Source of the DNA: Argopecten irradians
Taxonomy: Eukaryota > Mollusca > Bivalvia > Pectinida > Pectinidae
Assembly (NCBI RefSeq): GCF_041381155.1
Contig: NC_091134.1
Span: 41,871,338 to 41,935,337 of the forward strand
DNA length: 64,000 bases
Reading direction: 5' to 3'
Part shown: piece by piece, positions 4,845 through 46,346 of the stretch
Layout of the letters: the number at the start of each line of letters is the position of its first letter
Numbering within the stretch: position 1 is the first letter of the stretch
Made by a program: the position numbers and the translations under genes
The notes under the pieces: model-generated
What the model saw: the letters and a program-made list of their open reading frames with translations, nothing else
What the model was told of the DNA's origin: nothing
Databases searched by the model: none

Positions 4845-4954
4845 AACAACTTATTCTCAACCAAAATTCTAGCATTTTAAAATTTTGACAAACCAAGAAT
4901 TATTATGGCTAGCGTATTCACACATTTCAAATAAAACTTATTAATGATTAACTA

Positions 4955-7900
4955 TCATAATATTACACACGTTTTTGACTCTTTTATCTCTACCCGTTTT
5001 CTCTCTATCGCTGATGCTGCCATGGCAACTTTTGCAAATCTGGCAGTTTCAATTTTGGAATTAGTTTCTGATTTGGTGTCATCCCACACAATGAACAGTT
5101 TTGATTTGTCTATTTCTAGATCCAGTGGGTCCCTGCCATTAGCTAGTTCCTCTTTCTCTTTGGCAATAACTTCCTGAGCTTGGTGGATAAGTTGTTGCTG
5201 TATTTTTGAAGTAATTGGGTGTTCCGCAATATGTATTGTGTGCGTCAGTTTTACTCTGTTTACTGGAAATACAAAAGAAATTATATGAGGCCCATGATAT
5301 GAGTGATACATGATGGTAGAAAGAGGTTAAAGATTTTAATGACTCACATTGAATAAATTTTCCTATTTAGTTATCGGACAATTGATTTCAAGGCAATGCG
5401 AAAAATACGTAGAAACCTCTCTGGGTAATAGGGTCACAATATGAAGGGGAAGAACACTCCCTGGGGAGGTACATGACCCAGGTGATGAGGTCTGTATAGT
5501 ACCTTACCTGAGTGAGGCAGTATAATAAAGGGGTAGAACCCTCCCTGGGGAGGTACATGATCTGGGTGATGGGGTCTGTATAGTACCTTACCTGAGTGAG
5601 GCAGTGTAATGAAGGGGTAGAAGCCTCCTTAGAGGAGGTACATGAACCGGGTGATGGGGTCTGTATAGAACCTTACCTGAGTGAGGCAGTGTAATGAAGG
5701 GGTAGAACCCTCCCTGGGGAGGTACATGATCTGGGTGATGTGGTCTGTAAACTGAAAAATAGGTGGGGGGTCTTATTTGCAGACATCCCCCCTAAGTCTG
5801 AAAATGTGTCAAAATAGGTGGGGGGTCTTATTTGCGGGAGGGGTCTTATTTGTGGTGAAATACGGTACCTAAGTGAGGCAGTGTAATGAAGGGGTAGAAT
5901 CCTCCCTGGGGAGGTACATGATCTGGGTGATGGGGTCTGTATAGTACCTTACCTGAGTGAGGCAGTGTAATGAAGGGGTAGAACTCTCCCTGGGGAGGTA
6001 CATGACCCAGGTGATGGGGTCTGTATAGTACCTTACCTGAGTGAGGCAGTGTAATGAAGGAGTAGAACCCTCCCTGAGGAGGTACATGATCTGGGTGATG
6101 GGGTCTGTATAGTACCTTAACTGAGAGAGGCAGTGTAATGAAGGAGTAGAACCCTCCCTGGGGAGGAACATGACCCCGGTGATGGGGTCTGTATAGTACC
6201 TTACCTGAGTGAGGCAGTGTAATAAAGGGGTATAAAACTCCCTGGGGGAGGTACATGATCTGGGTGATGGGGTCTGTATAGTACCTTACCTGAGTGAGGC
6301 AGTGTAATGAAGGGGTAGAACACTCCCTGGGGGAGGTACATGATCTGGGTGATGGGGTCTGTATAGTACCTTACCTGAGCGAGGTAGTATAATGAAGGGG
6401 TATAACCCTCACTGGGGAGGTACATAACCCGGGTGATGGGGTCTGTATAGTACCTTACCTGAGCGTGGCAGTATAATGAAGGGGTATAACCCTCACTGGG
6501 GAGGTACATAACCCGGGTGATGGGGTCTGTATAGTACCTTACCTGAGTGAGGCAGTGTAATGAAAGGGTATAACCCTCCCTAGAGGAGGTACATGACCCG
6601 GGTGATGGGGTCTGTATAGTACCTAACCTGAGTGAGGCAGTGTAATGAAGGGGTAGAACCCTCCCTGGGGAGTTACATGACACGGGTTATGGGGTCTGTA
6701 TAGTACCTTACCTGAGTGAGGCAGTGTAATGAAGGGGTAGAACCATCCCTAGAGGAGGTACATGACCCGAGTGATGGGGTCTGTATAGTACCTTACCTGA
6801 GTGAGGCAGTGTAATGAAGGGGTAGAACCCTCTCTGGGGAGGTACCTGACCCAGGTGATGGGGTCTGTATAGTACCTTACCTGAGTGAGGCAGTGTAAAG
6901 AAGGGGTAGCCTTACTTGAGTGAGGCAGTGTAATGAAGGGGTAGCCTTACCTGAGTGAGGCAGTGTAATGAAGGGGTAGAAGCCTCCCTAGAGGAGGTAC
7001 ATGACCCGGGTGATGGGGTCTGTATAGTAGCTTACCTGAGTGAGTCAGTGTAATGAAGGAGTAGAACCCTCCCTGGGGAGGTACATGATCTGGGTGATGA
7101 GTCTGTATAGTACCTTACCTGAGTGAGGCAGTGTAATGAAGGAGTAGAACCCTCCCACGGGAGGTACATGTCCCGGGTGATGGGGTCTGTATAGTACCTT
7201 ACCTGAGTGAGGCAGTGTAATGAAGGAGTAGAACCCTCCCTGGGGAGGTACATGATCTGGGTGATGGGGTCTGTATAGTACCTTACCTGAGTGAAGCAGT
7301 GTAATGAAGGGGTAGAAGCCTGCCTAGAGGAGGCACATGATCTGGGTGATGGGGTCTGTATAGAACCTTACCTGAGTGAGGCAGTATAATGAAGGGGTAG
7401 AATCCTCCCTGGGGAGGTACATGACCCGGGTGATGGGGTCTGTATAGTACCTTACCTGAGCGAGGCAGTATAATGAAGGGGTAGAACCCTCCCTGGGGGA
7501 GGTACATGACCCGGGTTATGGCGATGCTCCTGTCTATACAAAGGTACAGGACCACCAGTTTATCCTCCTTGTCTAGCTCCGATTCTGGGATAATCATTCC
7601 CCATCCAATCTTTTGTCCCTTAGATACAGCTTCCAAGGCTTCAACAGAAACATATATGGTTCACAATCTAGTAACCATATGTAATATAAAGCTAACAAGT
7701 TATTTCAGGTAAAGTACTGAGCATACTCTCAATATGGCCTATACTCTACCTATATATATAACACTGTTAACCAACTTATTTTCATGTGGTATTGAATTTT
7801 GTGTATTTTGTGAGTACATGTAATTAAAAATCACCAGGATTGATCACTGCAAAAATGTTTCAAGCACACAGTAGTAGAATAACATGAGTCTAAACCCAGA

Positions 7901-10900
7901 AATTAAATCGCTACAAATAAAGTTGCCATGGAATTAATTTGGTTTTACAAATAATCCTTTATCTAGCATGGACTTTATAAGATATTAGCAGGTATATGAA
8001 TAATGGTTGAAATTAAATATACTGACCTACATTGTAAATGTATAAAAGTTACGAGTTTTAACATTTAATTTTTTTTTTTTTTTTTGCAGACCGATAAACA
8101 CATAAGAAATAAGCATTGTATAATTACATCTATAGGTATAATTATAGCATTAATTTAAGAATACCTAGGTATCAACTTAAAGAAGTGTCAATACACCTAC
8201 CTTCTTGCTGAGCCAGGAATTGGACAACATCTTGTCTGTAGACAGAGGAGGTTGTTATCTCAAAATCCTGAAAACATGGGGTGATTACAGCTATCCCAGC
8301 TGGAATGTTTTCAGCATCAAAGTCATCTATAAGCTCTATCTCAAAGAAGTCATAAGCTGAAACAAAAGTATGGTAGAGTTTTATATATACAAACAAATAT
8401 TAATTTTATCTTGTTGGTCCAAGGGGCTGTGGTGGCAGAATGGTTAAGATGTCCCAACATATTACCACAAACCCTCCACCCATATGGTAGTGAGTTTGAA
8501 TCCCATGTGGGGCAGTTGCCAAGTACTGACTGCTAGTCAGTGGTTTTCTCTGGGTACTAATGTTTTCATCCACCATCAAACCTGGCACGTCCTTACATGG
8601 CCCTCCATGGCTGTTAATTGGACGTAAAACTAAACAAACCAAATTGTTGATCCACCACATTTCATTGCATGTCCTGCTCCATCCTGTCCTACATGTATCA
8701 TCCTGTCCAACTCCTATTTTATATTCATACAGAGACAGCTATATAGAAATAGGGACAGTTATATCTAGTCTTATACTCTGCTACATACATAAAGGGTCAC
8801 ATTACTTCTTTGAGAATCTTAGTAGAACTCTTTACTATGTTTATGACGTACTGAAGCTGACATTTCCAATTATAACCTCATTGAATATTCAGGGCCCGAC
8901 AATGTCAGATCTCCTTTAGACAACAATGTTGGGATATAAGGTCAGATTGTTATACTTCAAAACATAAACATTTTAAACTACACACTTTGATATTTTAGAC
9001 TGATGTATCTATATAGCAGCAGGTTGTACCTTCTTCTGGCTTGAAGGGATGCGGTGACTGTAACATGATGGACTCCATATGGTCTGGTACCATGGCGATA
9101 TTGTTGTCTTCGTCTACCTCAGATCCAGTAGGAAGTACCCAATTCTTTATCTGGTTCTGAAAATTAAATTATGAAACTATCTAAAACCATGTGCTTCTTA
9201 ATAACCACATATAAACCCAAGCATGTGTTTAGCCATATGGTTTTATACCTAAAATTGTACTTGTAACATAGTATTAAATGGTTTTCCATTATACGTACTT
9301 GTTATTGCTGATGGATTTGGATCAAATTAGGAAGGGGAAAATTGCGGATACCTAGTAATTAGACAAAGCAGATGAAAAGACAGTCCTGAAGAGTAGAGAG
9401 CAAACTTACCACTGCTATACACGTAGTCTTGAAGATCTTAGTCTGCCAGAACACACGCACCTCTACCTCATAGCCATTACCACACAGAGATACCGTGGGC
9501 AGCATCTGGGCAGGGTCTAAAACGGTGTAGTGCCGAGTCCCAATAGCCTTAGTGTTCTTACGAAACATTGCTACCGGCCATTTGTGTCCAATGTTACTCA
9601 ACTCCACCTCAACTGTATCACCTTCATGGAAAATTATACTCTTAAATGAGTTTACATACATTGTACCTACAAGGTATAGTACAATAACGTAAACATTTCA
9701 CATGGTGACTTATCTCGTTTTATACCCAAAGTTCATGCTTTTGAATGTACAGTGTGTCTGTAATTTATTACAGATTTACAATGTATTTGTAATGCAATCA
9801 ATAAACAATGTACAGTTTAGCTCAACAAAAGTTTTTGAGATTTATTAAGGATTCTACTTTAACTTTGGAGGTACATTTTGTGTATATTACAGAAACGTTT
9901 CATTTGATAAATTTTATTCGTTTGATTCTGAGATTGGATTCCAACTTAATATTAACTGACCTTCTTCGTACCGCTCCCCCATTGTGTAGCCTTGTGAGTT
10001 ACCATTGTAGTACATACGACCACCACGTGAGGACCAGCCTGTAGAGTTTGGTACCTTCCCTAGGTGTTTGTTTAGTGCAAACTGATCTGTTGCCAAACCA
10101 ATAGTAACTACTGAATCTTCATCTGAAAAAAATGAAAATCTATAATTATGATAAACAGTATCCCCTAAACTCCCTGTAAAGCAATTTCCGATCCAGGGGC
10201 CCTACCTAATTCAGTCATTCTTTTTTTTTCTTTTTCATTTATCAGATTTGAGCAATACCACAATATGGACAAATAAAATCTTACATTGCTCTGTCAGGTG
10301 AGCAAGGATATACACTTATAAAATACCTGAGCCTAACTCGATTTGTCCTCTTCTAGAAGTGCTTCTAAAATATAACATCCAACCACTTAATTCTGCTTCT
10401 GGAAGCTCAAGCTTCTACCTACGAGCTGGAAGGTATTCTGAGAAGACTTCTCTCCTTGGAAGAGCACAAATCAAGTTGGTCTCAAGTATGTGTATACTTA
10501 CTTAGAGTCTTGATTTCCATATAGTAGTGGTTCTCCTCCTCTGTCATTGGCTTAAGCAACTGTACCACATGTATACCCATTTGTCCTGCTGGCAGACGGA
10601 TGGTGCAGTGCTGCTTACTCATATCTGGAGGCTGTACTCTGTGTATATCATACACTGGGATGTCAATGTCTAACACATCCGACTTTCTGAACACAAATGG
10701 TCGCAATACTGTAAACATATTGTGAATATATCATTAGAGAATTACAAGCGTGAATATATCGTTAGAGAAAAACAAGCGTGAATTTCTTCCCTGAGATTTC
10801 CAGTTTTGGTATTGAATGATATCACACTAAACCACATCAAACTACAAATGTGTTGCTATCAAAATACAATTTTAACATATTGCTTAATACTTAAAGTCAC

Positions 10901-13900
10901 TTAAAATATGCTGCATCTATCCTTTTAAGTATACTCTAGCACATCCATATTGTTTTTTATAAATACAAGAAACATTTAATTGCTAAAAAATTTTGAATTA
11001 TTTTTTATTTTTTTTGTAATTGTTTTTATTTTATTTTTATTTGAAATCATTTTCAATTTTACAGACAATGACAAAGATAGAGAACAATTCACCATAATAG
11101 TTTAAAAAAAAAGTATTTCATTTAATTGTAACAATTTTACATAACATTCAAATTTATACTTTTACACCCCCTCATGTACACACACCCTTACTCATATATA
11201 CCTAAGAGTTTACTTTCATTATTACATACATTCAGAGATTTCCCTACACCCACATTCATGAAATGATTTCTTGGACAAAAACCCAGTACATATCATTTGA
11301 ACCCATGACAGATCAAGAGTTAAAGATACTTGGGACTGATCCTTACAATCACTGTCACCACTGACCGCAGTGACCAACACTCACCATAGTGACCAAAACT
11401 GACCACAGTGCCTTACACTGACATCAGTGACCAACACAGACATCAATGATCAACAATGACCACAGTGACCACAAGGATAATTAATGAGATTCATGAACCA
11501 CAATTGTTAAACATTGTATGGTGCAATGAATGATTGCTCAGAAATACCTCTTTTGAGTGTGTCTTCCATTATCTGATTCTGAGTCTCCTCATAAGATTTC
11601 CAAAACAGTTCATTGTAGCTATGATACTCTGTGATGGGTATTGTCCGGTATGACTGTGTATCAATCTTCACTTTGGCACCTGTCAAATAGAAAAATAGAT
11701 ACATACTGGTACATTGGTACTGTAATCAGCCATGTAGGATCGGGAACTATTCTGTACATGTATGTCAAAGAAGAATTACAAAAAAGGTTATTACATAAAA
11801 ACACATGGATGGAAAAGAATAATGTCATGGTTTAAATCATCTTACCTTTTTTGTGAGAGTAAAATACCATTTCTATAGTTTCAAGTTCCAACACATAACC
11901 TACTGTTGTTGCAATTTTTTCTATCCATTCTATCCATGATATGATTTCATACCAACCACAAATTTAAGTCACTTTGCGATGCTTCATTTGATATATTTGC
12001 AGTATAAAATGAAATCAAATTAGAACTGTCGTCAGAGTAGACGGCTAATATCCTCTGTTGCACAAAATAAGTGATGAACAACCTGCTTCCAGTATATCCC
12101 CCCTCTTAACTTTATATTGGGGGGGGGGGGTGTATAATAACTGATAATTATAAACGATGTACATTTAACTTACATTCACTTCTTAGTACCACAAGAGGAA
12201 AGAAGCCACCTTCTGGCTGGATCATGTGACGGGCCAGTGACACCTCTTTGTCAAACGTAAGGAAGACCATGACTAGTTGTTGTGACTTGTGATCAAAATC
12301 AGGTTTGTTACTCTCATCAGGATTGTAGTATACACCAATTCCCACCACTGTACCAGGTTCAACACTAGTCACTGTACAGGCACAAATGTATTACAGTCTT
12401 TATACTTTAATGCAAATAAAGCTATGATGATATCAAAACTGGATAAAGGTCACTACATGAAAATCATATTAAATATGGCTTTTTTATCCCCTCCCTAAAA
12501 AGAATATCTTAACAGAACTAGCCTATGTTTTAATCTACTCAGATCAAAGTGGATTTAAAAGTATATTAAGTACTTGTGTACATACCGGAGTACACAAGTA
12601 AATTATTTACTTCAGACAGAATCCTCTTATTTGTTTAAAAATGTTTATATAAATTATACTGCATCAATATGACACATGTCAATCTTACACAGTATCAGTT
12701 GATAGCACATTCATTTATTCAATAATTCATTTATACTGCATTTATTTCACCATCTTTTGATATTTAAAACAAAACATTTTAGGTTTGGGACAGTGGATCG
12801 AGTTTATTAATGTAATGTAATGACTACAAGTCTCAGACATTACCTTTTCCATCTGCCATCCACCTGAAGTAGTCCCTGAGGAACTCACAAGTAGGAATCG
12901 GTGACATAGGACTACAGGTAGCAACACCTATGGCTGGGCTAACACCAGGGCTATCCACATCCTGTACAATTATCTCAAAATGCTGAAAATCTAAAAAAAA
13001 CATGAATGGATGAAAAAATCAATCATTGCATGCATTCAAATACCATTCTATGTGATTTTTTATTTAAATAATCACAGGGGGGAAGGGCCAGATAAGGGTA
13101 ACTGCAGTTACCCAAATCTAACATGGCGGCGGTACAAAAATACGAGATAATCGTACTGTCTGTTCACAGAATAGATGGGTCTTTTTCTTGCATAACCGCT
13201 GTAGATCGTGTCTTTTAACAATATTAGCAAAATTTGAAGCGCAGGTCATATGCACAGAGATCTTGCAGATTTTGCTACATAGTTAAAATAAGTTACAATT
13301 CATCCTTGTAGTTTACCTTGTTGTTGGTATATAATTACTAGCAAAGTAAAAGTTTTACTAACAAAATATATCTGCATATCCAGGTTAGTATCGCACACTC
13401 TCAACAAATTTGACTGGAAACCAGAATATTGCCAAAATTAGTTTTGTACAGTTTGATTGTTAACCATTCTACAATTCTACTGCTGTTTTTTTTTGTTAAC
13501 ATATCTGGACCGAAAAGTTGCAGGTCAAAGGATCAGCTATACATGAAAAAAATTGTCTGCCCAACTATAAAGTTGCTGGTTGGGAGAGGGCTTTTATCAG
13601 TTGTGATAACTTGTGGCCAATCCTGTAATTGTTTTTGCAATAAAATACGTTTAAACTTAAGTTGGCGATAGCGGGCAGACAAATAGGCGTTAATTTTGAA
13701 CACTGCTAATATCTTACTTTTATCTAATGGCTGTGGACTTTGTATGGGAACAGTGTTGTTTTGCTGCCCAGTAGCATCAGTGTATGTAAATATCTCTTTT
13801 TCAAGGTCATACTTAATGGTGTTTGGGTACAACCATTGAGTCATGTTTCTCTGTCAAAAAAGAGAAACAATAGTAATTTTACAGTATGAGAATATCTATT

Positions 13901-16470
13901 TAAACAAAGATTACAATAGCTTTCATAATAGAATAAACAAATATGACACATAGAGAAGCCTTTATTTTCACAATATTCAGCACATATGAAATTAGAATCA
14001 GCTTCGGAGTGTAAAAAATGAAAACTTTAAGAAAAAGCTCATAAAATCCTAAAAATGATAAAACTTAAATCTTTATTACATACATGTATATGTAATTAAA
14101 ACCATGCACTTTAATGAATATAAAGTCAAAGATTATCTAGACTTTTCAAGTTTTTAAAAAAATTCACAACATTTAAAGATGCTCCACCGCCAACAGAGCA
14201 TAAACGATATATTTCAATTTAACAATAATTGGTGTTTAATGGTGTATATATATGTCTAATTAACACCAAAAATAAATTAAATAATTCATTTTGCTTTTGG
14301 TGCATGCGCAATCAATACTTCATTCCATATAGGACATAGTGCCATAGGTTCATAAATCCAATGGAAACAAATATTTAAGATTCTATATACATTGCACATT
14401 TACTACTGTATACATTTACAAAGTAAGCTGTTTGGTTAGCCATGCTTAATGTCTACTCACATCGTCATACTTGGGAACCCCTATAGCAGCCTCGGGCCAC
14501 ATAATGCCCATATCTATAGGACCATTCTCAAGTGTAATTGTCGGAAGATAGTCCTCATGGTTTGTTTCATAATGGTACCTGAAATTATTCAATCAACCAA
14601 AGGTACAGTTTCATAGCGACATCTGAAAATATGGTTTGACCTGTGTTACAGACAAACTTGCCATAATTTTTGTTTTTTTGTTTTTGGTAGGTTTCTTGTG
14701 TAAAACAACAAAGTACATTCAATAGAAAAGTCTTTATGTGTCTGTTCCTTAGACAGCAGTGATAAATCTATGTGCAAGGGCCATAGACTCAAAAAATTCA
14801 GAAATGTCCCATAGAAATTTCAGAATTATTTAAATTTTACATAGAGGGACCCATTGTTTTGAACAAATCAACCAATAGTGTCCCATAGTTTTCAAAACGT
14901 AGATTTATCACCGAGACAGACCATGATAATTTAACCCTTGTGAATGATTTTAACTAGCACAAGGCTCGCCAAATACTGACCACCCAAAAATCTTACAAAA
15001 GGGTTAACATATCACTATCTACACATGTATTGTGTCAGACCCATGTATGATTACTTTTCTCCTAAACTTAGATTAAAATGATAAAATGTATGTTCTTTAG
15101 AAACATTTTCTCTGTTCAATCAAGTTTGATCCTTCTAACTCCCAGCAGCCCCATCCAATCAAATCAAAAGGATGAAGAGCTGCAAAATTGAGGACATTAT
15201 CATATAGTAACATACCAGTAACATAAAATGAAGCCATATTACATATTTGTAAAAAGTATCATATTGAATGTCAAATGTCTTCCCTCATTCCATGTGAGAT
15301 ACATATACATTTTCCTTGAACTGAGAGACAGTCCTATATTAGCGGTGCATGAGAACAAATTTTACCGATATAGCCTAACTTAAACAACTTGAAGGTTTAC
15401 CTTGTGGCTACTGGTTGTCCATTCTTCAGAAACATTACAGTAGACATGGTCTCACCAAAGTATGTGATCATCACTCCAAAGGTATCACCTGTAAGCAGTG
15501 GTAATATATATACAGGGACTAACATTTCTTTACATAGCAAACTTATTGAACTAAACTAACAAACTTTCAGCAAAATATTCAGCCTCAATATTCAACAGGA
15601 ACACTCAAATTATTCAAAGCTCATTGCCATTTCTTTAACTTTGAGACTCTTAACAATTTTGTTAAATTTAATACAGTAGGCCTATTAGTGTAAAACAGTC
15701 AAAACCAGTCCTTCTCTATACTTTCATACGGATGCCTGTTTACCCAGACACAATTGCATGACAATTTCCTTCTTAATTTTTAACCTGGCTTTACTGGCCA
15801 TTTATAATCTGGCCCCTGTGATATTTGGTTTAGACACAAGTTGAACAGTTAACTTTATATAACCTACCTATTCTGAACTTTTCTCCTTCACTATTAGCTA
15901 CATCACTATGACAAGTATAACATTTGCCATTATAACTATTGTATCCAACAGTCCTGTTCCATCTTCCAGGGTGGGCATCCTCAGCGATGTTGGGCCCAGC
16001 GATCCCTATGGTTATTTTGCTCTTTGATGCTATAAATCACGAAGATTATTCATTCTAAAATTTTCTGTCCTTAGGAATGATCTTTCCAAAGGTAGAAAGT
16101 AAACAAATAAAAGCTTTTGTTATCGTTTTATTGACCTTTGATAATGTTTTTATGAAGACATATTAGTTGCATCTTATTTCCATGGTAACTCTACTTTCCA
16201 TCTTGATTTCCACACAAGCCACATTTTAGGATATAAAATATATACAGTGTGTTATTACAGAGCGATGATCTAGAATAATACAGTGTTATACTTACATAGA
16301 GCACGGATTTGGCCAAAGAAATAGGGAAAGCGTGGAGTTAGAGGTTTCATGCATTGTAGAAAGTTACTGGTTTCAGAAAATTGTTTGAGCTGGACATCTG
16401 TAATTTGACCAGGAAATGGTGCATGACCATCAAACACTATGTCTCCAGTGTAGCGGAACAAGTCCGCCAT
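4955..16470 (-). CDS. Multi-SPRY-domain protein with C-terminal CaaX box (15 exons)
   Basis: Exons, 5' to 3': 16470-16296, 16029-15868, 15488-15401, 14578-14461, 13850-13718, 12990-12844, 12371-12174, 11679-11548, 10708-10502, 10122-9961, 9621-9410, 9156-9030, 8356-8201, 7638-7456, 5262-4955. They sum to 2508 nt (835 residues plus stop), with GT-AG sites and consistent phase throughout. Two SPRY-type segments are clear (about residues 58-180 and 454-578: GRWNRTVGYNSYNGKCY and SSRGGRMYYNGNSQGY, each followed by GDT...V.FLKNG-type strands). Two more divergent ones lie at about 225-345 and 620-734 (AIGVATCSP, AGIAVITPC; EGGFFPLVVL, QGGFYPFIILP). The tail, 735-835, is charged, probably helical, and ends CVIL, a CaaX sequence whose final L favours geranylgeranylation; a membrane-anchored SPRY scaffold is therefore inferred. 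SPRY domains bind protein partners; the partner is unknown. The start of exon 14 could instead be 9 nt later. I do not recognise an established gene name. Confidence 0.85.
5436..7516 (-). repeat. ~84-bp minisatellite (about 22 units) derived from the exon 14/intron boundary
   Basis: About 22 units of 80-85 bp fill most of the last intron of the SPRY gene. On the gene's strand each unit holds a copy of the last ~57 nt of exon 14 (reading like MYLPQGGFYPF..LP), then CACTCAG|GTAAGG, a strong splice donor, then intron bases ACTATACAGACCCC. The first unit is the real exon end; the donor at 7456 keeps the reading frame into the last exon. Most units keep GTAAGG. One is broken (CAGTTAAGG near 6116), and a few vary (GTTAGG near 6621, GTAAGC near 7028). 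Units near 6898-6960 are truncated, and one is interrupted by a 120-bp insert. Confidence 0.9.
5746..5868. mobile_element. Small insert within the minisatellite, MITE-like
   Basis: The minisatellite pattern stops after GTCTGTA and resumes at TACCTAAGTGAGG. Between them are two copies of AGGTGGGGGGTCTTATTTGC, a third GGGGTCTTATTTG and the end AAATACGG. The host unit is disrupted at a TA. This could be a short non-autonomous DNA transposon; no clear terminal inverted repeat or target duplication is readable. Confidence 0.45.
8413..8641 (+). mobile_element. tRNA-derived SINE in an intron of the SPRY gene
   Basis: The head reads like a tRNA gene: an A box in TGGCAGAATGGTTAAGATG (from 8433) and a B box GAGTTTGAATCCC (8492-8504), spaced as in RNA polymerase III promoters. 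A body with GTTTTCTCTGGGTACT follows, then a tail GGACGTAAAACTAAACAAACC. The length, about 230 bp, fits a SINE. It lies in intron 12, antisense to the gene. A degraded relative lies at 1545, and the tail words recur inverted at 62005. Confidence 0.7.
11345..11475 (+). repeat. Imperfect short tandem repeat (CAGTGACCAACACTGAC-like)
   Basis: Words such as CACTGACC, CAGTGACCAACAC and CCACAGTGACCA recur about every 18-20 bases over 130 bp, inside intron 8 of the SPRY gene. Units are diverged. No open frame or RNA structure is evident. Confidence 0.7.
12018..12130. repeat. Dispersed repeat fragment ending in a G12 run
   Basis: The opening TAGAACTGTCGTCAGAGTAG, then GACGGCTAATA, matches the start of the repeat at 34776 (TAGAACTGTCGCCAGAGTGG, GACGACTAATA). 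A run of 12 G at 12119-12130 follows. It lies within intron 7 of the SPRY gene, just below exon 7's donor. Confidence 0.55.
14174..14295 (+). repeat. Dispersed repeat (AAAGATGCTCCACCGCC family)
   Basis: It begins AAAGATGCTCCACCGCCAAC, continues AGAGCATAAACGATA and AATTGGTGTTTAATGG, and a second copy with the same words is at 63553 (AAAGATGCTTCACCGCTGAC). It sits in intron 4 of the SPRY gene. The type of element cannot be told. Confidence 0.6.
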
Positions 16471-21956: not shown

Positions 21957-24900
21957 TTAAATCCTTGATAAAGCATCAGCTAGAATATTGTCTTTCCCTT
22001 TGATATGTTTGATGTCAAGATTGTATTCTTGCAAAGTCAAACTCCACATGAGAATTCTTTGGTTTTTGTTTTTCATTTTCCCAATGAATGTCAAAGGGTT
22101 GTGGTCGGTGAAGACCAACACAGGCACAACTGTAGTGCAGAGATACACATCAAATTGGTTCAAGGCCAAAATCAATGCTAAACATTCTTTCTCAATGGTA
22201 GAAAAATTTCTCTGGTGTTTGTCAAATTTATTCGAGAAGTAACAAATTGGATGGTCAATTTGTTCAGTACCTTCTTGCATCAAAACAGCACCAACACCTA
22301 CATCACTGGCGTCGACAAACAGTTTAAACTGTTTATTAAAATCTGGAGCAGTCAGAACTGGTGAGTTTGATAGTATGGCTTTCAATTTCTCAAATGCAGA
22401 CTTACATTCGTCTGACCAAACAAATTTGACATTTTTCTTTAACAAAGCAGTTAGTGGAGCTGCTATAACAGAGAAATTTTGACAAAATTTTCTGTAGTAT
22501 CCAGCCATACCAAGAAACCTCATCAGCTCTCTCTTGCCTCCAGGAGCTGGAAAATCTATAATTGATTCTACTTTGGCCTGAACAGGTTTAACCTGCCCCT
22601 GTCCTACAACATGGCCTAAAAATTCAACAGTTGCATGACAAAATTCACATTTCAATAAGTTTACAGTCAATTTCATGGTAGTGAGTCTTTCGAAGAATTC
22701 ACGAATCCCGCGTAGATGGTCTTCCCACGTGTCGTGGTAGTTGATGACGTCATCAATGTATCCATCACAGCCTTCCAGGTCTGATATCACGCTGTTAAGA
22801 AGACGTTGAAATGTTGCCGGGGCATTCTTCATACCAAATGGCATAACTTTGTACTGGTACAAACCTTGCGAGGTTACAAATGCCGACACTTCTTTAGCTC
22901 TTTCTGATGGCACCTGCCAATATCCTTTCAACAGGTCAAACTTGCTAACATACTTGGCTTTGCCAACTTTGTCAATACAAGAGTCAATCCTTGGAATTGG
23001 ATAAGAGTCTGTTTTACTGACAGAGTTTACTTTTCTGAAGTCAGAACCGGTATGTCTTGTCTGGCTTTGGTACCAGAACACATGGAGAGCTCCATTCACT
23101 TTTGCTTGGTTCAATAATATCATTGTCCAACATGTATTGAATTTCTTTCTTTAAGTGTTCTTCTTTCAAAGGATTGACACGGTAAGGATGTTGCTTGACA
23201 GGTGGCGCATCGCCTACATCCACGTCATGATAGATAGCATCTGTTTTACCTGGTGCATCCGGAAACAAATGCTTAAACTCAAGTATCAAATCTTTCAGTT
23301 CATTGCGTTCCTTTTCTGATAGATGACATAGTTTCTTGTCCAAGTTCGCGAGCACATCTGAGTTCCGTAACTTAAGACCACAGTCTAAACCTACATCTTG
23401 TACACCACCATCTAAGTCTAATTTACAAATATCAGCTGTACTTTCACTTTGTGATGGTACAGAGGCCAAAGTAGCAATAGGTTGAGAGGTCTTGCTCTCT
23501 TCTCTATCTACATATTTCTTAAGCATATTAACATGACATAACTGAGTTTTCTTGCGCCTCCCTGGAGTTTGTACAATGTAGTTAACATCATCAACCTTTT
23601 TCTCAACAACATAAGGTCCAAAATATCTAGCTTGCAAAGGCTGACCCGGTATTGGTAATAGAGCCAAAATTTTGTCACCTGGATCAAAACTTCTTGCACG
23701 GGCATCTTTATCATACCATGTTTTCATTTTGGTTTGAGTAACGGCCAAATTTTCTTTTGCCAGTTCACATGCCCTTGTCAACCTTTGCTTAAAGTTAGAC
23801 ACATACTCTAAGAGATTCACTTTAGAATCTTCGTCCAAAATTTTGTCTTTCAAAATTTTCAAAGGACCACGTACAGTATGTCCAAACACAAGTTCAAAGG
23901 GACTGAAGCCAAGAGATTCTTGTATAGATTCTCTAACGCCAAACAACAACATGTGTATACCTTCGTCCCAATCTCGTTTGTTTTCAAAACAATAAGATCT
24001 CATCATATTCTTCAATGTCTGATGAAAACGTTCTAAAGCACCCTGAGACTCTGGATGATAAGCACTAGACTTATATTGCTTGATCTGGAGCTGGTACATG
24101 ACTTGTTGAAAAATACCAGACATGAAATTCGAACCTTGGTCCGATTGGACAGCTTTTGGAAGACCAACCAATGTAAAGAATTTAACCAAAGCCTTGACTA
24201 TGTTAGGGGCTTTAATATTCCTTAGTGGAATGACTTCAGGAAAGCGTGTGGAAGCACACATAATAGTTAAAAGATACTCATTCCCAGACTTAGTTTTGGG
24301 TAGAGGACCTACACAGTCTATAATAACTCTACTAAATGGTTCCTCAAATGCTGGAATGGGGTGCAAAGGTGCAACAGGGATTTTCTGATTAGGTTTCCCT
24401 ACCACCTGACAAGTATGACAAGACCTACAAAAATCAGCCACATCCCGTTTCAACTTGGGCCAAAAGAAGTGATCTAAGATCCTGTTATAAGTCTTGGTCA
24501 CACCTAGATGCCCTGCCATAGGTACGTCATGAGACAAACTTAGAATATCTTGCCTATACCTCGGTGGGACAACTATTTGATTGACAACCTTCCAGTCTTC
24601 CTCGGGAGACACATCAGGGGGACGCCACTTGCGCATCAACACACCTGACTGACGGAAGTAACAAACCGGGACTTTCTCAGCCTCTTCCTCACTCAAAGCC
24701 CGATTACACAATAAGGAGATTTCAGGATCTTTCTCCTGTTCTACTATAAGCTCCTCTCTAGACAAAGATGATTTACTCATCATGTCAGACAAAGAAGTAC
24801 CCTTGTTAGGAACAACTCTATTACTATCAAAGTCTACAGGATTGCTCAAAAGATCACACTTGCCCCCGATATCCTCTATATCATGAGCCAAGAAAGTGTC

Positions 24901-26772
24901 ACCTAACCCTGGACTATAATGATCCTCAACTACTGCAACATCAGAAACCTTCTTACCCATTGAACGAGTTACAGCACAAGAAGGGAAAATACCAGGAAAT
25001 TCCTGTTGAATAGTCTCAGCATCACCTGTTTTATCTGGAATACTGGACACTAAGGGATCTACCCTAACTTTCTCTCCAGCCAAGTCATTGCCTAAAATGA
25101 GCGACACGCCCTCTATGGGAAGTTCCGGTCTAACACCAATGGTGACAGGCCCAGTAACCAAGTCTGACTTTAAATAAACAGAATGGAGAGGCACATTAAC
25201 AAAACCTAACTCTACACCCTGAAGCAAAACACTACTACCACATGAGGTCTCCTCAGACAAAGGCACTACGCCATCTAATATCAAAGAATGAGAAGCCCCA
25301 GTATCTCGCAAAATCTTCACAGGTTTCAAGTTGGTAATATCACTAGTAAGTGAAACAAAACCTTCAGAAATGAAGGGAGAGTACTTCTCCAAGACACTAT
25401 CAGACTCTGAGCTCTTAATCTCAACAGACACTTTAGAATCTTCCACAATATCACTAAGTTTCTGACTAGGCTTTGACATAGCTAACACAGAAGGAACTGA
25501 CTGTTTACGCCTTTGCTCCTTACGCTGGAGAGAATAACATTCAGACATAGTATGCCCTACTTTCTTGCAGTAATTACAAACAGGACCAGAAGGAGACCCC
25601 AACACCTGCCCTATGATCTGTTTTAGAATCAGACTTAGTCTTATCACCTAATTTAGGTTTGTTGTTAGAAGGGCCACTAAAGGTTGGGTTCCTAGGCTGA
25701 CCAAATTTACTAGTACCTGTGGTACTGTTTTTGTCTTGAGAACTGTTTTTAACAAATGAGCCTTTGTGGGTGAGAGCGTAATCATCAGCCATTGTAGCTG
25801 CTTCACTAAGTGTTTCAACTTTTCTCTCATCTAAATGAGTTTTTATGTTTGTGTGGACACAACGTTTAAACTCATCTATCAACAATAATTGCCTCAATTT
25901 ACCGAAATCCTCATCAATTTCTTTAGAATCACACCACCTATTAAATAATTGTTCCTTTTCTCTGGCAAATTCTACATGAGTTTGTTCATCTCTCTTTCTC
26001 GAGTTTCGAAATTTCTGGCGGTAAGCCTCAGGAACTAACTCATAAGCTTTCAAAATAGCTTTCTTGACTACTTGGTAATTTGAAATGTCATCTAGAGATA
26101 AAGAAGAATAAATGTCTCTAGCTTTACCTATCAAGACACTTTGAAGAAGCATTGTAAGCTTATCTTCAGGCCATTTCATACTGTCAGCTATTTTCTCAAA
26201 ATGTAGAAAATACTTGTCAACTTCTTTCTCTTGAAAAGGAGGAACTAACCTAATGTTTCTACTGACATCAAAACCTCTGTTTCCTTGTAAACCCCTAAAA
26301 GTTAGATTACTTGAACTGTCTTGAGAAGCTAGCTCTAATTCTTTCATTCTAAGTTCTGTTTCAGCTTGAATTTTTCTGCTTCTCTAGCTCTAACATCTGA
26401 TCTCTCTCAATTTCTTTTTCTCTTAACTCTCTTTCTTTGTCTATTTCTTTTTTCTCTTAACTCCTTTTCTATTTCTCTTTCTCTCATTTCTTTCTCTATT
26501 TGTTTCATTTTCATTTCATGTTCAAGTTCCATTTGTCTAATTTGGATTTCTGAAGTGACTGTTTCCTCTATACTATCTAATGCACTAGAGTCAAATTTGC
26601 CATGGTCAACAAAATATCTTATAATTACATTCCTAATTTCAGCTTTCCTCAAATTAGTTTTGATAGTAAGGCCTAAATGTTTACCCAATAACAGTAAATC
26701 CTTCTTACTAACTTGCAAAAGAACTTCCAGGGATGGCGCTTTAACAAACTGTTCTACCTGCATAGTAGTCAT
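21957..26772 (-). pseudogene. Broken gag-pol of copy A
   Basis: Gag begins MTTMQVEQF with a SAP-like helix pair, then a K/E-rich coiled coil. Next is a capsid segment (from VPPFQEKEVDKYF to SEAATMADDY) resembling the SCAN/Gmr1 capsid fold, and a CCHC knuckle CNYCKKVGHTMSEC. Pol follows with protease DTGA, integrase HHCC and D-D-E (IIDCVGPL, SDQGSNF, LERFHQ), a FGPY module, RT (PFGMKNAP, YIDD near 22750) and RNase H (FVDAS, EKECLAL, FTDHNPL). Against copy B it has single-base gains near 26371, 26452 and 25604, loss of a coiled-coil repeat near 26410, a 5-base loss near 23045 inside RT, and a 3-base loss near 22908. The intact ancestor seems to have had one gag-pol frame. Confidence 0.9.
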
Positions 26773-26876
26773 ACTTATCTAGCTGTTGGTTTCAAATGTA
26801 AACTCAAAGTTTGTACACAAATTTTGAAAATTTCTTAATTAATTTTTCAAAGTTAGATTTCACACATTGAATATCG

Positions 26877-26896
26877 ATCTCGGACACGAGCCCCCA
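26877..26896 (-). other. Primer binding site, copy A
   Basis: Four bases after LTR 2 the minus strand reads TGGGGGCTCGTGTCCGAGAT. The TGG pairs with a tRNA CCA end, and TGGGGGCTCGT is the start of known tRNA-Pro primer sites, so a proline tRNA primer is likely. Confidence 0.65.
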
Positions 26897-26900
26897 ATTC

Positions 26901-27608
26901 TGTTACATTAACGAATAACAGAAAGGAGAAACCAGCAGCTAAATTCAAAACACAATTTAATTATATATACAATATTATACAGAGATGGTTTACAATATCT
27001 AAAGTAATTGGTGGTGGTACAAGACTAGTACGATGATTTAAAGTGTTACTTATCTGTATGCGAATGTCCTGGTATAATCCTTGATCCTTCCAGGTTTCAA
27101 ATTAACAATAATCACAAATCCACAAGGAAATTGAATGTCCACCGATGATTTGTAAAGTTCCAGGCAATATGAATAAATCCACACAAAGTGTTGTAATAAT
27201 CCACAGATAAAGTCACAATAGCTCTCCCAATAGAATCTTATATGGCGCTGTACAATTCTTGATATGTCTTATTACAGGTCTCATTACAGTTCTGATTAGC
27301 CTTGGACAGCTGGAGTATATATAGCTAAACCGTAATTCAAGAATATTGGAGAACCTTCTACTTCTAGAAATATCTAACTAAAAACAGTAAACAAGTAAAC
27401 ACACATAACTTTCTGGAAATAGATCATTCTAGATCTCTACTTAAAATCAACATGTTTACAAACATATTTGTTTATACATGATTATATTCTAGAAAGTTCT
27501 ATAACCTAAATCAATGATATGACCTTTCATAGGATGTATTGATAAAAAAAGCTATAGGAGTTATCTCCCTTATATCATAACTACATGTATTTAGTGTCAT
27601 ACATAACA
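26901..27608 (-). repeat. LTR 2 (shared: 5' LTR of copy A, 3' LTR of copy B)
   Basis: 708 bp, same ends as LTR 1 (TGTTA...TAACA). It is preceded on the plus strand by the copy A primer site and followed by the copy B polypurine tract, so it serves both elements. Confidence 0.93.
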
Positions 27609-27619
27609 CACCCCTCCTT
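27609..27619 (-). other. Polypurine tract, copy B
   Basis: AAGGAGGGGTG, identical to that of copy A, next to the middle LTR on the minus strand. Confidence 0.75.
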
Positions 27620-27696
27620 AAAGAAAAGAAAGTTTTCTTGAAAAGGAAACTTTCTTGACATAATAAGTCATATTTAAATCCTTGATAAAGCATCTG

Positions 27697-30600
27697 CTAG
27701 AATATTGTCTTTCCCTTTGATATATGTTTGATGTCAAGATTGTATTCTTGCAAAGTCAAACTCCACCTGAGAATTCTTTGGTTTTTGTTTTTCATTTTCC
27801 CAATGAATGTCAAAGGGTTGTGGTCGGTAAAGACCAACACAGGCACAACTGTAGTGCAGAGATACACATCAAATTGGTTCAAGGCCAAAATCAATGCTAA
27901 ACATTCTTTCTCAATGGTGGAATAATTTCTCTGGTGTTTGTCAAATTTATTCGAGAAATAACAAATTGGATGGTCAATTTGTTCAGTACCTTCTTGCATC
28001 AAAACAGCACCAACACCTACATCACTGGCGTCAACAAACAGTTTAAACTGTTTATTAAAATCTGGAGCAGTCAGAACTGGTGAGTTTGATAGTATGGCTT
28101 TCAATTTCTCAAATGCAGACTTACATTCGTCTGACCAAACAAATTTGACATTTTTCTTTAACAAAGCAGTTAAGTGGAGCTGCTATAACAGAGAAATTTT
28201 GACAAAATTTTCTGTAGTATCCAGCCATACCAAGAAACCTCATCAGCTCTCTCTTGCCTTCCAGGAGATGGAAAATCTATAATTGATTCTACTTTGGCCT
28301 GAACAGGTTTAACCTGCCCCTGTCCTACAACATGGCCTAAAAATTCAACAGTTGCATGACAAAATTCACATTTCAATAAGTTTACAGTCAATTTCATGGT
28401 AGTGAGTCTTTCGAAGAATTCACGAATCCCGCGTAGATGGTCTTCCCACGTTTCGTGGTAGTTGATGACGTCATCGATGTATCCACCACAGCCTTCCAGG
28501 TCTGATATCACGCTGTTAAGAAGACGTTGAAATGTTGCCGGGGCATTCTTCATACCAAACGGCATAACTTTGTACTGGTACAAACCTTGCGAGGTTACAA
28601 ATGCCGACACTTCTTTAGCTCTTTCTGTTAATGGCACCTGCCAATATCCTTTCAACAGGTCAAACTTGCTTACGTACTTGGCTTTGCCAACTTTGTCAAT
28701 ACAGAGTCAATCCTTGGAATTGGATAAGAGTCTGTTTTACTGACAGAGTTTACTTTTCTGAAGTCAGTACAGAACCGGTATGTCTTGTCTGGCTTTGGTA
28801 CCAGAACACATGGAGAGCTCCATTCACTTTTGCTTGGTTCAATAATATCATTGTCCAACATGTATTGAATTTCTTTCTTTAAGTGTTCTTCTTTCAAAGG
28901 ATTGACACGGTAAGGATGTTGCTTGACAGGTGGCGCATCGCCTACATCCACGTCATGATAGATAGCATCTGTTTTGCCTGGTGTATCCGGAAACAAATGA
29001 TTAAACTCAAGTATCAAATCTTTCAGTTCATTGCGTTCCTTTTCTGATAGATGACACAGTTTCTTGTCCAAGTTCGCGAGCACATCTGAATTCCGTAACT
29101 TAACACCACAGTCTAAACCTACATCTTTGTACACCACCATCTAAGTCTAATTTACAAATATCAGCTGTACTTTCACTTTGTGATGGTACAGAGGCCAAAG
29201 TAGCAATAGGTTGAGAGGTCTTGCTCTCTTCTCTATCTACATATTTCTTAAGCATATTAACATGACATAATTGAGTTTTCTTGCGCCTCCCTGGAGTTTG
29301 TACAATGTAGTTAACATCATCGACATTTTTCTCAACAACATAAGGTCCAAAATATCTAGCTTGCAAAGGCTGACCCGGTATTGGTAATAGAGCCAAAAAT
29401 TTTGTCACCTGGATCAAAACTTCTTGCACGGGCATCTTTATCATACCATGTTTTCATTTTGGTTTGAGTAACGGCCAAATTTTCTTTTGCCAGTTCACAT
29501 GCCCTTGTCAACCTTTGCTTAAAGTTAGACACATACTCTAAGAGATTCACTTTAGAATCTTCGTCCAAATTTTGTCTTTCAAAATTTTCAAAGGACCACG
29601 TACAGTATGTCCAAACACAAGTTCAAATGGACTGAAACCAAGAGATTCTTGTACAGATTCTCTAACGCCAAACAACAACATGTGTATGCCTTCGTCCCAA
29701 TCTCTTTTGTTTTCAAAACAATAAGATCTCATCATATTCTTCAATGTCTGATGAAAACGTTCTAACGCACCCTGAGACTCTGGATGATAAGCACTAGACT
29801 TATACTGCTTGATCTGGAGCTGGTACATGACTTGTTGAAAAATACCAGACATGAAATTCGAACCTTGGTCCGATTGGACAGCTTTTGGAAGACCAACCAA
29901 TGTAAAGAATTTAACCAAAGCCTTGACTATGTTAGGGGCTTTAATATTCCTGAGTGGAATGGCTTCAGGAAAGCGTGTGGAAGCACACATAATAGTTAAA
30001 AGATACTCATTCCCAGACTTAGTTTTGGGTAGAGGACCTACACAGTCTATAATGACTCTACTAAATGGTTCCTCAAATGCTGGAATGGGGTGCAAAGGTG
30101 CAACAGGGATTTTCTGATTAGGTTTCCCTACCACCTGACAAGTATGACAAGACCTACAAAAATCAGCCACATCCCGTTTCAACTTGGGCCAAAAGAAGTG
30201 ATCTAAGATCCTGTTATAAGTCTTGGTCACACCTAGATGCCCTGCCATAGGTACGTCATGAGACAAACTTAGAATATCTTGCCTATACCTCGGTGGGACA
30301 ACTATTTGATTGACAACCTTCCAGTCTTCCTCGGGAGACACATCAGGGGGGCGCCACTTGCGCATCAACACACCTGACTGACGGAAGTAACAAACCGGGA
30401 CTTTCTCAGCCTCTTCCTCACTCAAAGCCCGATTACACAATAAGGAGATTTCAGGATCTTTTTCCTGTTCTATTATAAGCTCCTCTCTAGACAAAGATGA
30501 TTTACTCATCATGTCAGACAAATAAGTACCCTTGTTAGGAACAACTCTATCACTATCAAAGTCTACAGGATTGCTCAAAAGATCACACTTGCTCCCGACA

Positions 30601-32553
30601 TCCTCTATATCATGAGCCAAGAAAGTGTCACCTAACCCTGGACTATAATGATCCTCAACTACTGCAACATCAGAAACCTTCTTACTCATTGAACGAGTTA
30701 CAGCACAAGAAGGGAAAATACCAGGAAATTCCTGTTGAATAGTCTCAGCATCATCTGTTTTATCTGGAATACTGGACACTAAGGGATCTACCCTAACTTT
30801 CTCTCCAGCCAAGTCATTGCCTAAAATGAGCGACACGCCCTCTATGGGAAGTTCCGGTCTAACACCAATGGTGACAGGCCCAGTAACCAAGTCTGACTTT
30901 AAATAAACAGAATGGAGAGGCACATTAACAAAACCTAACTCTACACCTTGAAGCAAAACACTACTACCACATGAGGTCTCCTCAGACAAAGGCACTACGC
31001 CATCTAATATCAAAGAATGAGAAGCCCCAGTATCTCGCAAAATCTTCACAGGTTTCAAGTTGGTAATATCACTAGTAAGTGAAACAAAACCTTCAGAAAT
31101 GAAGGGAGAGTACTTCTCCAAGACGCTATCAGACTCTGAGCTCTTAATCTCAACAGACACTTTAGAATCTTCCACAATATCACTAAGTTTCTGACTAGGC
31201 TTTGACATAGCTAACACAGAAGGAACTGACTGTTTACGCCTTTGCTCCTTACGCTGGAGAGAATAACATTCAGACATAGTATGCCCTACTTTCTTGCAGT
31301 AATTACAAACAGGACCAGAAGGAGACCCCACACCTGCCCTATGATCTGTTTTAGAATCAGACTTAGTCTTATCACCTAATTTAGGTTTGTCGTTAGAAGG
31401 GCCACTAAAGGTTGGGTTCCTAGGCTGACCAAATTTACTAGTACCTGTGGTACTGTTTTTGTCTTGAGAACTGTTTTTAACAAATGAGCCTTTGTGGGTG
31501 AGAGCGTAATCATCAGCCATTGTAGCTGCTTCACTAAGTGTTTCAACTTTTTCTCTCATCTAAATGAGTTTTTATGTTTGTGTGGACACAACGTTTAAAC
31601 TCCTCTATCAACAATAATTGCCTCAATTTACCGAAATCCTCATCAATTTCTTTAGAATCACACCACCTATTAAATAATTGTTCCTTTTCTCTGGCAAATT
31701 CTACATGAGTTTGTTCATCTCTCTTTCTCGAGTTTCGAAATTTCTGGCGGTAAGCCTCAGGAACTAACTCATAAGCTTTCAAAATAGCTTTCTTGACTAC
31801 TTGGTAATTTGAAATATCATCAACAGATAAAGAAGAATAAATGTCTCTAGCTTTACCAATCAAGACACTCTGAAGAAGCATTGTAAGCTTATCTTCAGGC
31901 CATTTCATACTATCAGCTATTTTCTCAAAATGTAGAAAATACTTGTCAACTTCTTTCTCTTGAAAAGGAGGAACTAACCTAATATTTCTACTGACATCAA
32001 AACCTCTGTTTCCGTGTAAACCCCTAAAAGTTGGATTACTTGAACCGTCTTGAGAAGCTAGCTCTAATTCTTTAATTCTAAGTTCTGTTTCAGCTTGAAT
32101 TTTCTGCTTCTCTAGTTCTAACATCTGATCTCTCTCGATCTCTTTTTCTTTTAATTTTCTTTCCATTTCTTTTTCTCTTAACTCTCTTTCTTTGTCTATT
32201 TCTTTTTCTCTTAACTCCTTTTCTATTTCTCTTTCTCTCATTTCTTTCTCTATTTGTTTCATTTTCATTTCATTCTCTATTTGTTTCATTTTCATTTCAT
32301 GTTCAAGTTCCATTTGTCTAATTTGGATTTCTGAAGTGACTGTTTCCTCTATACTATCTAATGCACTAGAGTCAAATTTGCCATTGTCAACAAAATATCT
32401 TATAATTACATTCCTAATTTCAGCTTTCCTCAAATTAGTTTTGATAGTAAGGCCTAAATGTTTACCCAATAATAGTAAATCCTTCTTACTAACTTGCAAA
32501 AGAACTTCCAGGGATGGCGCTTTAACAAACTGTTCTACCTGCATAGTAGTCAT
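27697..32553 (-). pseudogene. Broken gag-pol of copy B
   Basis: Same domain order as copy A. Gag is open from 32553 to 31543 with a longer coiled coil; a one-base gain near 31552 ends it. The next frame, 31559-29547, runs without a break from the end of gag through the CCHC knuckle, protease DTGA and integrase core. Pol is then cut by one- or two-base changes near 29571, 29396, 29127, 28704, 28258, 28171 and 27724. The RT still shows VPLTERAKE, PFGMKNAP and YIDD (near 28475). Because the breaks fall in different places in A and B, most arose after the two copies separated. This copy is more decayed in pol than A. Confidence 0.9.
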
Positions 32554-32659
32554 ATTTATCTAGCTGTTGGTTTCAAATGTAAACTCAAAGTTTGTACACA
32601 AATTTTGAAAATTTCTTAATTAATTTTTCAAAGTTAGATTTCACAAATTGAATATCGAT

Positions 32660-33387: not shown

Positions 33388-34500
33388 CCTTCACTTTGAC
33401 CTTTACCTTACTGTCCCTTACACTTTGACCTTTACCTCACAGTGCCCTAAACTTTGACTTATACCTTAAAGTGCCCTACACTTTGACCTTTACCTTGCAG
33501 TTCCCTACTCTTTGACCATTACCTTACTGTCCCCTACACTTTGACTATAATGTTACTGTCCCCTACACTATACTTTGACCTAAACCTTACCGTGCCCTAC
33601 ACTTTGACCTTAACCTTACAGTGCCCTACACTTTGACGGTTACCTTACTGTCCCCTACATTTTGACCTTTACCTTGCAGTTCCCTACACTTTGACCGTTA
33701 CGTTACTGACCCCTATACTTTGACCTGAACCTTACCGTGCCCTACACTTTGACCTTAACCTTACAGTGCCCTACACTTTGACCTTAACCTTACAGTGCCC
33801 TACACTTTGACCTTTACCTTGCAGTTCCCTACACTTTGACCGTTACCTTATTGTCCCCTACACTTTGAACTTTACCTTACTGTCCCCTTCACTTTGACCT
33901 TTACCTTACTGTCCCTTACACTTTGACCTTTACCTCACAGTGCCCTAAACTTTGACTTATACCTTAAAGTGCCCTACACTTTGACCTTTACCTTGCAGTT
34001 CCCTACTCTTTGACCATTACCTTACTGTCCCCTACACTTTGACTATAATGTTACTGTCCCCTACACTATACTTTGACCTAAACCTTACCGTGCCCTACAC
34101 TTTGACCTTAACCTTACAGTGCCCTACACTTTGACGGTTACCTTACTGTCCCCTACATTTTGACCTTTACCTTGCAGTTCCCTACACTTTGACTTTTACC
34201 TTGCAGTTCCCTACACTTTGACCTTAACCTTACAGTTCCCTACACTTTGACTGTTACCTTACTGTCCCCTACATTTTGACCTTTATCTTACAGTCTCCTT
34301 CACTTTGATCTTTACCTTACTGTCCCCTACACTTTGACCTTTACCTTACAGTCCCCTACTCTTTGACCTTTATCTTACAGTCTCCTTCACTTTAACCTTT
34401 ACCTTACTGTCCCCTACACTTCGACCTTTACCTTACAATCTCCTTCACTTTGACCTTTACCTTATGGTCTCCTACACTTTGTCCTTTACCTTACTGTCTC
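33388..34500. repeat. ~30-bp minisatellite, about 36 units, with a 498-bp higher-order repeat
   Basis: Units read like CTACACTTTGACCTTTACC followed by TTACTGTCCC. The block starting CCTTCACTTTGACC at 33388 recurs at 33886, with the same series of unit variants for about 280 bp (including ACTATACTTTGACC), so a 498-bp segment was duplicated whole. On the minus strand units read TAGGGGACAGTAAGGTAAAG, which contains a splice-donor-like AGTAAGG or GGTAAAG. The array runs from the retrotransposon edge to the candidate exon at 34495. Confidence 0.9.
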
Positions 34501-34603
34501 CTAGACAACTGATGAAAGCTGGACCGATGACATTGATGTGATGTTTACAGTGTGGTTCCATATTTTTGGCCGAAGTTAAACAAATGGCTATTGTCATGTT
34601 CAC
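34495..34603 (-). CDS. Candidate orphan exon abutting the minisatellite
   Basis: The minus strand shows a good acceptor (CTTTGTTTGCAG) and then 109 nt open in only one of three frames, beginning VNMTIAICLTSAK and ending FISCLGD, before GACA|GTAAGG. Helical, HEAT-like spacing is possible but no family was recognised. Any further exons of the gene would lie beyond 12 kb of retrotransposon, or may be lost. It could be part of a gene starting at the promoter-like region near 37.9 kb. The final CTAGGAGACAGTAAGG matches the repeat unit next to it. Confidence 0.35.
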
Positions 34604-41368: not shown

Positions 41369-42125
41369 ACAACACAACCACACAACACAACATCACATAA
41401 CAACACACAACACAACAACACACAACACAACATCACACAACAACACACAACACAACAACACACAACACAACATCACACAACACAACATCACACAACACAA
41501 CATCACACAACAACACACAACACAACGTCACACAACAACACAACACACACAACACACAACAACACACAACACAAAACAAAACAAAATACCACAACATAAC
41601 ATAACACAACACATTTCACACAATATCACACTACACACAACACAACCACACCACAACACACAACCACGCAACAACAACACAACACCACCTAACAACAACA
41701 CAACAAAACACAACCACACAACACAACATCACAACACAACATCACAACAAAACATCACACAACAACACATCACACAATACAACAACACACAACACAACCA
41801 CACCACAACACACAACCACAACACAACACACCACCACACAACAACAATACAACACCACCCAACAACAACACAACGCAACAACAACACAACACACGACACC
41901 ACCACACAACACATCACACAACACAACATCACACAACACAACATTACACAACACAACATCACACAACATATCACACAACAACACGACACACAACAACACA
42001 TCACAACCACACAACAAAAACACAACACAACACCACACAAAACACAGCCACACAGAATCCAACAACACACATCACAACACATCAATAACACACAACATAA
42101 CACAACAACACAAAACACAACGATG
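41369..42125 (+). repeat. ~750-bp AC-rich simple sequence (CACAACA-type)
   Basis: Almost only A and C on the plus strand, as ACACAACATCACACAACAAC-type units with slow variation and no clean period. Long open frames on both strands here are a result of composition and are not genes. Confidence 0.9.
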
Positions 42126-45535: not shown

Positions 45536-46346
45536 TCATAATGTTGTATGAATTAATTAACTTGACATAAATTGTCCCTGACACATTATATCTTTACATA
45601 GACACAAATGTTTGAAGTTTTATGTTTGAATCTTTTAATACTAAAGCCGTTCTCGGTGTTTATATCTTGAAATATTTGACCAAACTGTCAGTAAGCGGCA
45701 TGGTACCGTCACTTTCAGAGATATACGTAGTAATAATATCTAAATTTCTGCTTTAATAAATAAACATTGTTTAAGCAAGGTTCGATCAGAAATTATGATA
45801 TAAACCTTCCTATCAAGGAGAACTTTCCGTTGCAATCAATAATCAATTCTTTCATTCCTCAAAGATGATATTTACACATCAAAATTGATTAAAGTTCTGT
45901 TTGAAAAGGTTTTATTTTTTGTTCTTCTACATTATATTCGTTGAACGTTGTAAATATGTTTCTCTATACAATGTTCTTTGTAAAGAGATAGAACTAATTT
46001 TGAAGTTTTAAGGCAATTGCAAGATACATGAAATTTTATTTTTACGCTTTGTGCTATTTCTGCGACATACAGTTGTAGAACTAATAAACAAAGAGGCAAG
46101 TAAACACGACAGTGAAAGGAAGTATATAAGCAACAATACATATATCACAGACGCATACATAATTAATTGAGTTAGACTTAGCTCAAGTCATATTAGTTAT
46201 AACATGAGCAAAATATTAGAAACCAGAACATACCCTCCACGAGCCCCATATTTGATGATAATCTAAATAATCGTTTGTTTGACGAATAGTTATAATTACC
46301 GACAGTTTATGTATACATTTGTATTTGGATATATCCTAGTGACCTC
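45536..46346. other. Unassigned AT-rich DNA
   Basis: No gene, repeat or strong motif recognised in this stretch. Confidence 0.35.

Follow-up and report, generated by a model that had tools for sequence, protein, structure and literature searches.

Within the 64-kb stretch of Argopecten irradians DNA analysed here (the window), a gene model was built by hand on the minus strand. The product of its corrected 15-exon version, in which exon 11 starts at 9621, is identical across all 835 residues to P0001, an uncharacterized Argopecten irradians SPRY-domain protein of 835 aa that was the top match in the protein search. The Pfam, protein and PDB searches and the homologue alignment used as query an 850-aa version of the product, in which exon 11 began 45 nt upstream of 9621. 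With this query the Pfam SPRY domain was recovered at E 8.9e-14, and the only PDB match at E 0.001 was SPRYD3 (2yyo, E 2.2e-4). With the 8000 best candidates scored, 16 proteins matched the full gene product at E 0.001 or better, and the product of exons 14 and 15 alone gave no protein match at E 0.001 (48 candidates, length-limited). BLASTP of the two domain halves, in line with exon 7 being an internal paralogue of exon 14, gave 29% identity (E 4e-13). The host protein is a multi-SPRY protein whose family is uncharacterized. A C-x-x-L C terminus (CVIL, CVLL, CTIL, CNIL and similar) was also seen in the host protein, where it reads CVIL, and in all 15 aligned homologues; we take this ending to be a CAAX-like prenylation signal. 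The features of the locus are as follows.

4955..16470, minus strand: the host gene's coding part, spread over 15 exons in a GT-AG model, with P0001 as product.
12174..12371, minus strand: exon 7, the internal paralogue of exon 14, with a matching end residue and the same phase, and without an array.
7456..7638, minus strand: exon 14, 183 nt, with a phase 1 end; the final 66 nt open the array as its first unit.
7455..7456, minus strand: exon 14 donor, CTCAG/GTAAGG, the donor taken by the public protein model.
5441..7521, minus strand: 84-bp minisatellite, each unit joining 66 nt of exon end to 18 nt of intron across the splice donor.
6875..6979, minus strand: 35-bp sub-array of 3.0 copies, retaining only the pyrimidine tract, the AG/GT region and the donor.
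5750..5865, minus strand: unrelated insert of ~116 bp that splits the array, seen as the gap between two Tandem Repeats Finder blocks.
5388..5440, minus strand: candidate decayed further copy past the array, from local alignment.
4955..5262, minus strand: exon 15, the last coding exon, with the acceptor TTTCCAG immediately upstream (5263).

A reading made from the letters of the window, referred to below as the sequence-only reading, had proposed a minus-strand minisatellite of ~84 bp made of an exon end and its splice donor. Tandem Repeats Finder verified this array, with an 84-bp period and two blocks, of 19.8 copies at 5866-7521 and 3.7 copies at 5441-5749; its head-to-tail arrangement and unit length lie within what is called a minisatellite (units of roughly 10-100 bp). 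Exon 14's own unit is followed by 21 more full copies and two short copies of 35 bp, and the array closes with a truncated copy (~5441). Two details of the proposal needed correction. The unit had been divided into ~57 nt of exon and ~25 nt of intron, and the actual division is 66 and 18 nt. The array had also been said to begin exactly at exon 14; exon 14 is indeed involved, but the array starts inside it, at 7521, and overlaps its edge, the exon end at 7456 being the end of the first unit.

Beyond the last copy, the stretch 5388..5440 aligned locally to the unit with a score of 31, against a mean of 18 and a maximum of 31 in 500 shuffles, and its identification as a decayed copy is suggestive only. 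The insert motif AAATAAGACCCCC had no other occurrence in the 64-kb window at up to 1 error. In the insert region (5745-5869), acceptor-like AGs were noticed at 5752 and 5745, with generic matrix scores of 8.2 and 7.7; the donor at 5677 follows after ~70 nt, so a pseudo-exon could be defined there. Searching 4900-8400 against Rfam gave no match at the gathering score, RNA structure in four single units did not go beyond that of shuffles (z -0.89, 0.31, -0.81 and 0.50), and the 18-nt intronic part found no support for an origin in upstream exon sequence (p 0.20).

Tandem arrays are difficult to assemble, and the exact copy number of this one may be wrong in the assembly. That the assembly falsely expanded only a few real units is nevertheless highly improbable, since the full copies differ from one another (89% pairwise identity on average, with a range of 76-99%; two copies are counted including foreign ends) and the insert interrupts the array. 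This unit comparison, like the mismatch counts given below, covers the copies other than the two short ones (donors 6916 and 6881).

The repeated unit carries the donor with it. There are 24 donor positions, namely exon 14's own and 23 downstream, and the 23 spacings between them are 84 (12 times), 85 (7 times), 83 (once), 35 (twice) and 192 nt (once, spanning the insert). The exact sequence CAG/GTAAGG stands at 19 of the 24 positions, AG/GT at 22 and GT at 23. Over both strands of the 64 kb this donor sequence (CAGGTAAGG) occurs 19 times, every time inside the array, against an expected count for the window of 0.35 under a dinucleotide Markov model. The sequence-only reading had inferred about 20 competing 5' splice sites in a row. 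The number agrees with the 20 of 24 that score at least 11.9 with a generic donor matrix; competition among them is putative, and the public protein model takes the first donor only. The generic matrix ranks the exon 14 donor first in the gene (12.5, against at most 10.1 for the other 13), but a matrix made from those 13 gives it a middling 6.5 (5 of the 13 are lower and 8 higher).

Mismatches among the copies were counted by region. The donor 9-mer had 5 in 187 cells (2.7%), the intronic part 6 in 352 (1.7%) and the exonic part 88 in 1386 (6.3%), with 94 in 1738 (5.4%) overall. The donor 9-mer is thus neither purged nor specially preserved. Selection on the donors was considered, and the comparison of the exonic 5' part with the tract plus donor gave p 0.057 when mismatches were counted and p 0.024 when alleles were; we discounted it, because the intronic bases past the donor are at least as well kept (p 0.050 in favour of those bases). 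Since the donor 9-mer is no better kept than the adjacent intronic bases, the copies would be alike through recent expansion or homogenisation and not through selection on donors.

The direction of the duplication can be read from the protein. Of the 14 other aligned proteins (P0002 to P0015), 13 conserve the segment encoded by the exon 14 end. The exception, P0015 from Mya arenaria, is a shortened model that does not have this segment or several other stretches, and P0013, also from Mya arenaria, has the segment. P0015 is included in the 15-protein alignment and absent from the 14-sequence alignment; P0016 (Patiria miniata) is in neither. The three scallop proteins, P0001, P0002 and P0003, share MYLPQGGFYPFIILP.S as the sequence encoded at the exon end and continue with VNRV from exon 15; R715, V716, P720, G722 and G723 are invariant in the 14-sequence alignment. 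Of the 21 full copies that follow exon 14's own unit, 19 are non-coding in the frame of exon 14, by frameshift or stop. Since the exon 14 end is a conserved coding segment, the array is taken to derive from the exon. Amplification of the exon-intron boundary itself, with a directly readable source, is thus well supported, in line with the sequence-only reading; exon 7 also ends equivalently, without an array. That reading had named what would speak against it, namely relatives with a different exon 14 end and with a terminal coding segment unconserved outside the array. At the protein level, where this was checked, the claim was not refuted.

A different origin would have a pre-existing satellite or mobile repeat landing beside the gene and supplying the end of exon 14. 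Bivalve genomes are rich in minisatellites and mobile repeats, and the insert that splits the array may be taken as favouring such an origin. It is already contradicted at the protein level, however, by the conserved exon end, which is shared with homologues named nemertean and gastropod by their sources, and the 3' half of the unit has no copy elsewhere in the window at up to 5 errors (outside 5508-7485). We therefore give this origin hardly any credence. With an amplified boundary as the preferred origin, a conserved coding segment is the source, and the birth of the minisatellite can be followed directly.

What the array would do to the transcript depends on which donor is joined to exon 15. 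Joined straight to it, donor 1 gives a product of 835 aa and donor 2 one of 863 aa, with 28 aa added in frame. Donor 3 shifts the frame and runs into a stop inside exon 15, and the other 21 donors meet an early stop at least 80 nt before the last junction. The full reading frame is thus kept by the first two of the 24 donors only. In P0001 the first donor is the one used, exon 14 being followed at once by exon 15, and the sequence-only reading's order of exon 14 followed by exon 15 from 5262 matches the gene model identical to it. P0001 is a predicted protein, and the predictor may just have picked the conserved junction; it also represents one member sequence, in which alternative isoforms would be invisible.

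The added 28 aa raise the idea of a coding repeat, in which the gene would make and use isoforms with at least one 28-aa unit inserted behind residue 733. The full 863-aa product of donor 2 is compatible with it, as are the 17 of 276 whole-unit inserts that keep the full frame. Yet 22 of the 24 donors joined straight to exon 15 give no full product, the 28-aa insert is present in none of the 15 aligned proteins, and a search with one translation of the array returned no match at E 1 among 200 candidates. Such isoforms seem to us quite improbable.

The first donor is most probably the one used, the remainder being tolerated intronic decoys. For the fuller account, in which the exon 14 boundary was duplicated, the array grew, the first donor is used and the other donors act as decoys, we estimate a probability of roughly 0.7. 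Specifically, a tandem duplication would have captured the exon 14 boundary, from the last 66 nt of the exon through its 5' splice site to 18 nt into the intron; unequal exchange or slippage would then have grown it to some 23 units. This growth would have lengthened intron 14 to its 2193 nt, against 253-839 nt for the 13 other introns of the gene. The donor at 7456, adjoining the body of the exon, would be picked by exon definition, and the entire array would be removed within intron 14, with the downstream donors left as tolerated decoys. Transcripts using donor 4 or later would meet an early stop and would normally be degraded.

The copies of AG/GT may instead be dual-specific, acting as donor or as acceptor, with unit-to-unit splicing that removes whole units. 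A transcript spliced from a downstream donor could then be put right by a further splice from 7456 to that copy's AG, which would yield the same mRNA. AG/GT is retained at 22 of the 24 positions and at a fixed place in each unit, and human UBC operates by dual-specific sites (PMC10809524). With the generic acceptor matrix, the end of exon 14 scores 8.5 as an acceptor, above 12 of the 14 real acceptors, and the gene's 7 other exon ends in AG score between -8.4 and 0.9; the array median of 7.9 is reached by only 6 of 534 other AGs (1.1%). The exon 14 end also has 15 pyrimidines in 20 bases and 31 AG-free bases, where real acceptors have 11-16 and 15-78. The scoring models disagree, as those trained on the gene's own acceptors place the copies low. 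In matrices trained on these T-rich acceptors the copies have a median of -3.0, which 234 of 532 other AGs at least equal, and 12 of the 14 real acceptors score equal to or better than the copies. In a pooled tract model the copies' median of -2.0 lies under all 14 real acceptors and is at least equalled by 177 of 532 other AGs; exon 14's own end scores -0.9, above 1 of the 14. Furthermore, of 69421 synonymous codings of the peptide with an A/G ending, 8527 (12%) reach the score of exon 14, which indicates that the protein sequence explains much of the acceptor likeness. Dual use of the copies is, on balance, a rather unlikely reading that still deserves weight. If it were true, a dual, self-correcting array would explain the tolerance of many perfect decoys and the growth of an intron by units of this kind.

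Several known systems resemble the scallop array in part. In human UBC and VCX3A, tandem arrays of dual-specific splice sites have been described together with a model of their expansion (PMC10809524). As outlined there, AG/GT is fixed in each unit, as it is here, whole units can be removed or kept, and unit expansion is proposed as a route to introns. The UBC and VCX3A units are coding and their site use is RNA-shown, whereas the scallop array is intronic and its copies are putative acceptors (PMC10809524). Unlike UBC and VCX3A as presented in that source, the first scallop unit is the end of a constitutive exon with a real donor (PMC10809524).

Tandem repeats at human exon-intron boundaries have been described as forming new introns (PMC2812944). 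The likeness lies in a minisatellite that extends over an exon-intron boundary and may alter splicing; the human cases, as that paper summarises them, concern recent paralogues with ~30-bp units and ~4 repeats, in contrast to 84 bp and some 22 full units in the scallop, with a donor in each (PMC2812944). Intron gain through tandem duplication or repeat expansion is likewise on record (PMC4974935, PMC3629103, PMC2395259). In the cases outlined by these sources, as here, duplication over or near a splice boundary gives ready splice signals, and one potato duplication spans an intron-exon boundary; those cases created new introns, whereas the scallop array lengthened an existing one, with none newly annotated (PMC4974935, PMC3629103, PMC2395259). 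Tandem duplication that includes splice signals is present at our locus, each unit spanning the exon 14 donor, but P0001 requires no new intron, just a longer intron 14, and we do not class the array as intron gain.

Recursive splice sites offer another parallel, as an intronic AG/GT could regenerate a donor after splicing; in the accounts given by these sources they serve large introns, whereas the scallop has a short-unit array of putative sites (PMC5126111, PMC2773006). A worm minisatellite has also been linked to alternative splicing (PMC4039745). Amplification of a donor boundary to ~20 copies did not appear in the titles and abstract openings listed for open-licence PubMed Central papers. 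In this conserved animal gene, ~20 near-identical strong donors follow one another between a single exon and a single acceptor. The locus is a natural experiment that can show which of several equal donors, the first or the last, prevails, and how introns become longer.

Other repeats and genes were seen elsewhere in the 64-kb window. A 29-bp array of 38 copies occupies 33388-34503; its minus-strand unit contains GTAAGGTAAAGG, and it starts ~100 nt past an acceptor-like site at 34601. As a candidate second exon-edge donor minisatellite it was rejected, coding support not having been found and Pfam giving no match. A 63-bp tandem array (12.2 copies, 94% matches) lies at 44763-45536, and an ACAAC pentanucleotide array (149 copies, 68% matches) at 41369-42121. 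Two closely similar sets of retroelement frames lie in the same orientation at 21957-32563, and the frame at 21957-23150 has Pfam reverse transcriptase and RNase H matches. In addition, exon-like frames of a membrane transporter were observed on the minus strand at 51596-55212, where 54823-55212 matches Pfam Sugar_tr with E 9.1e-10.
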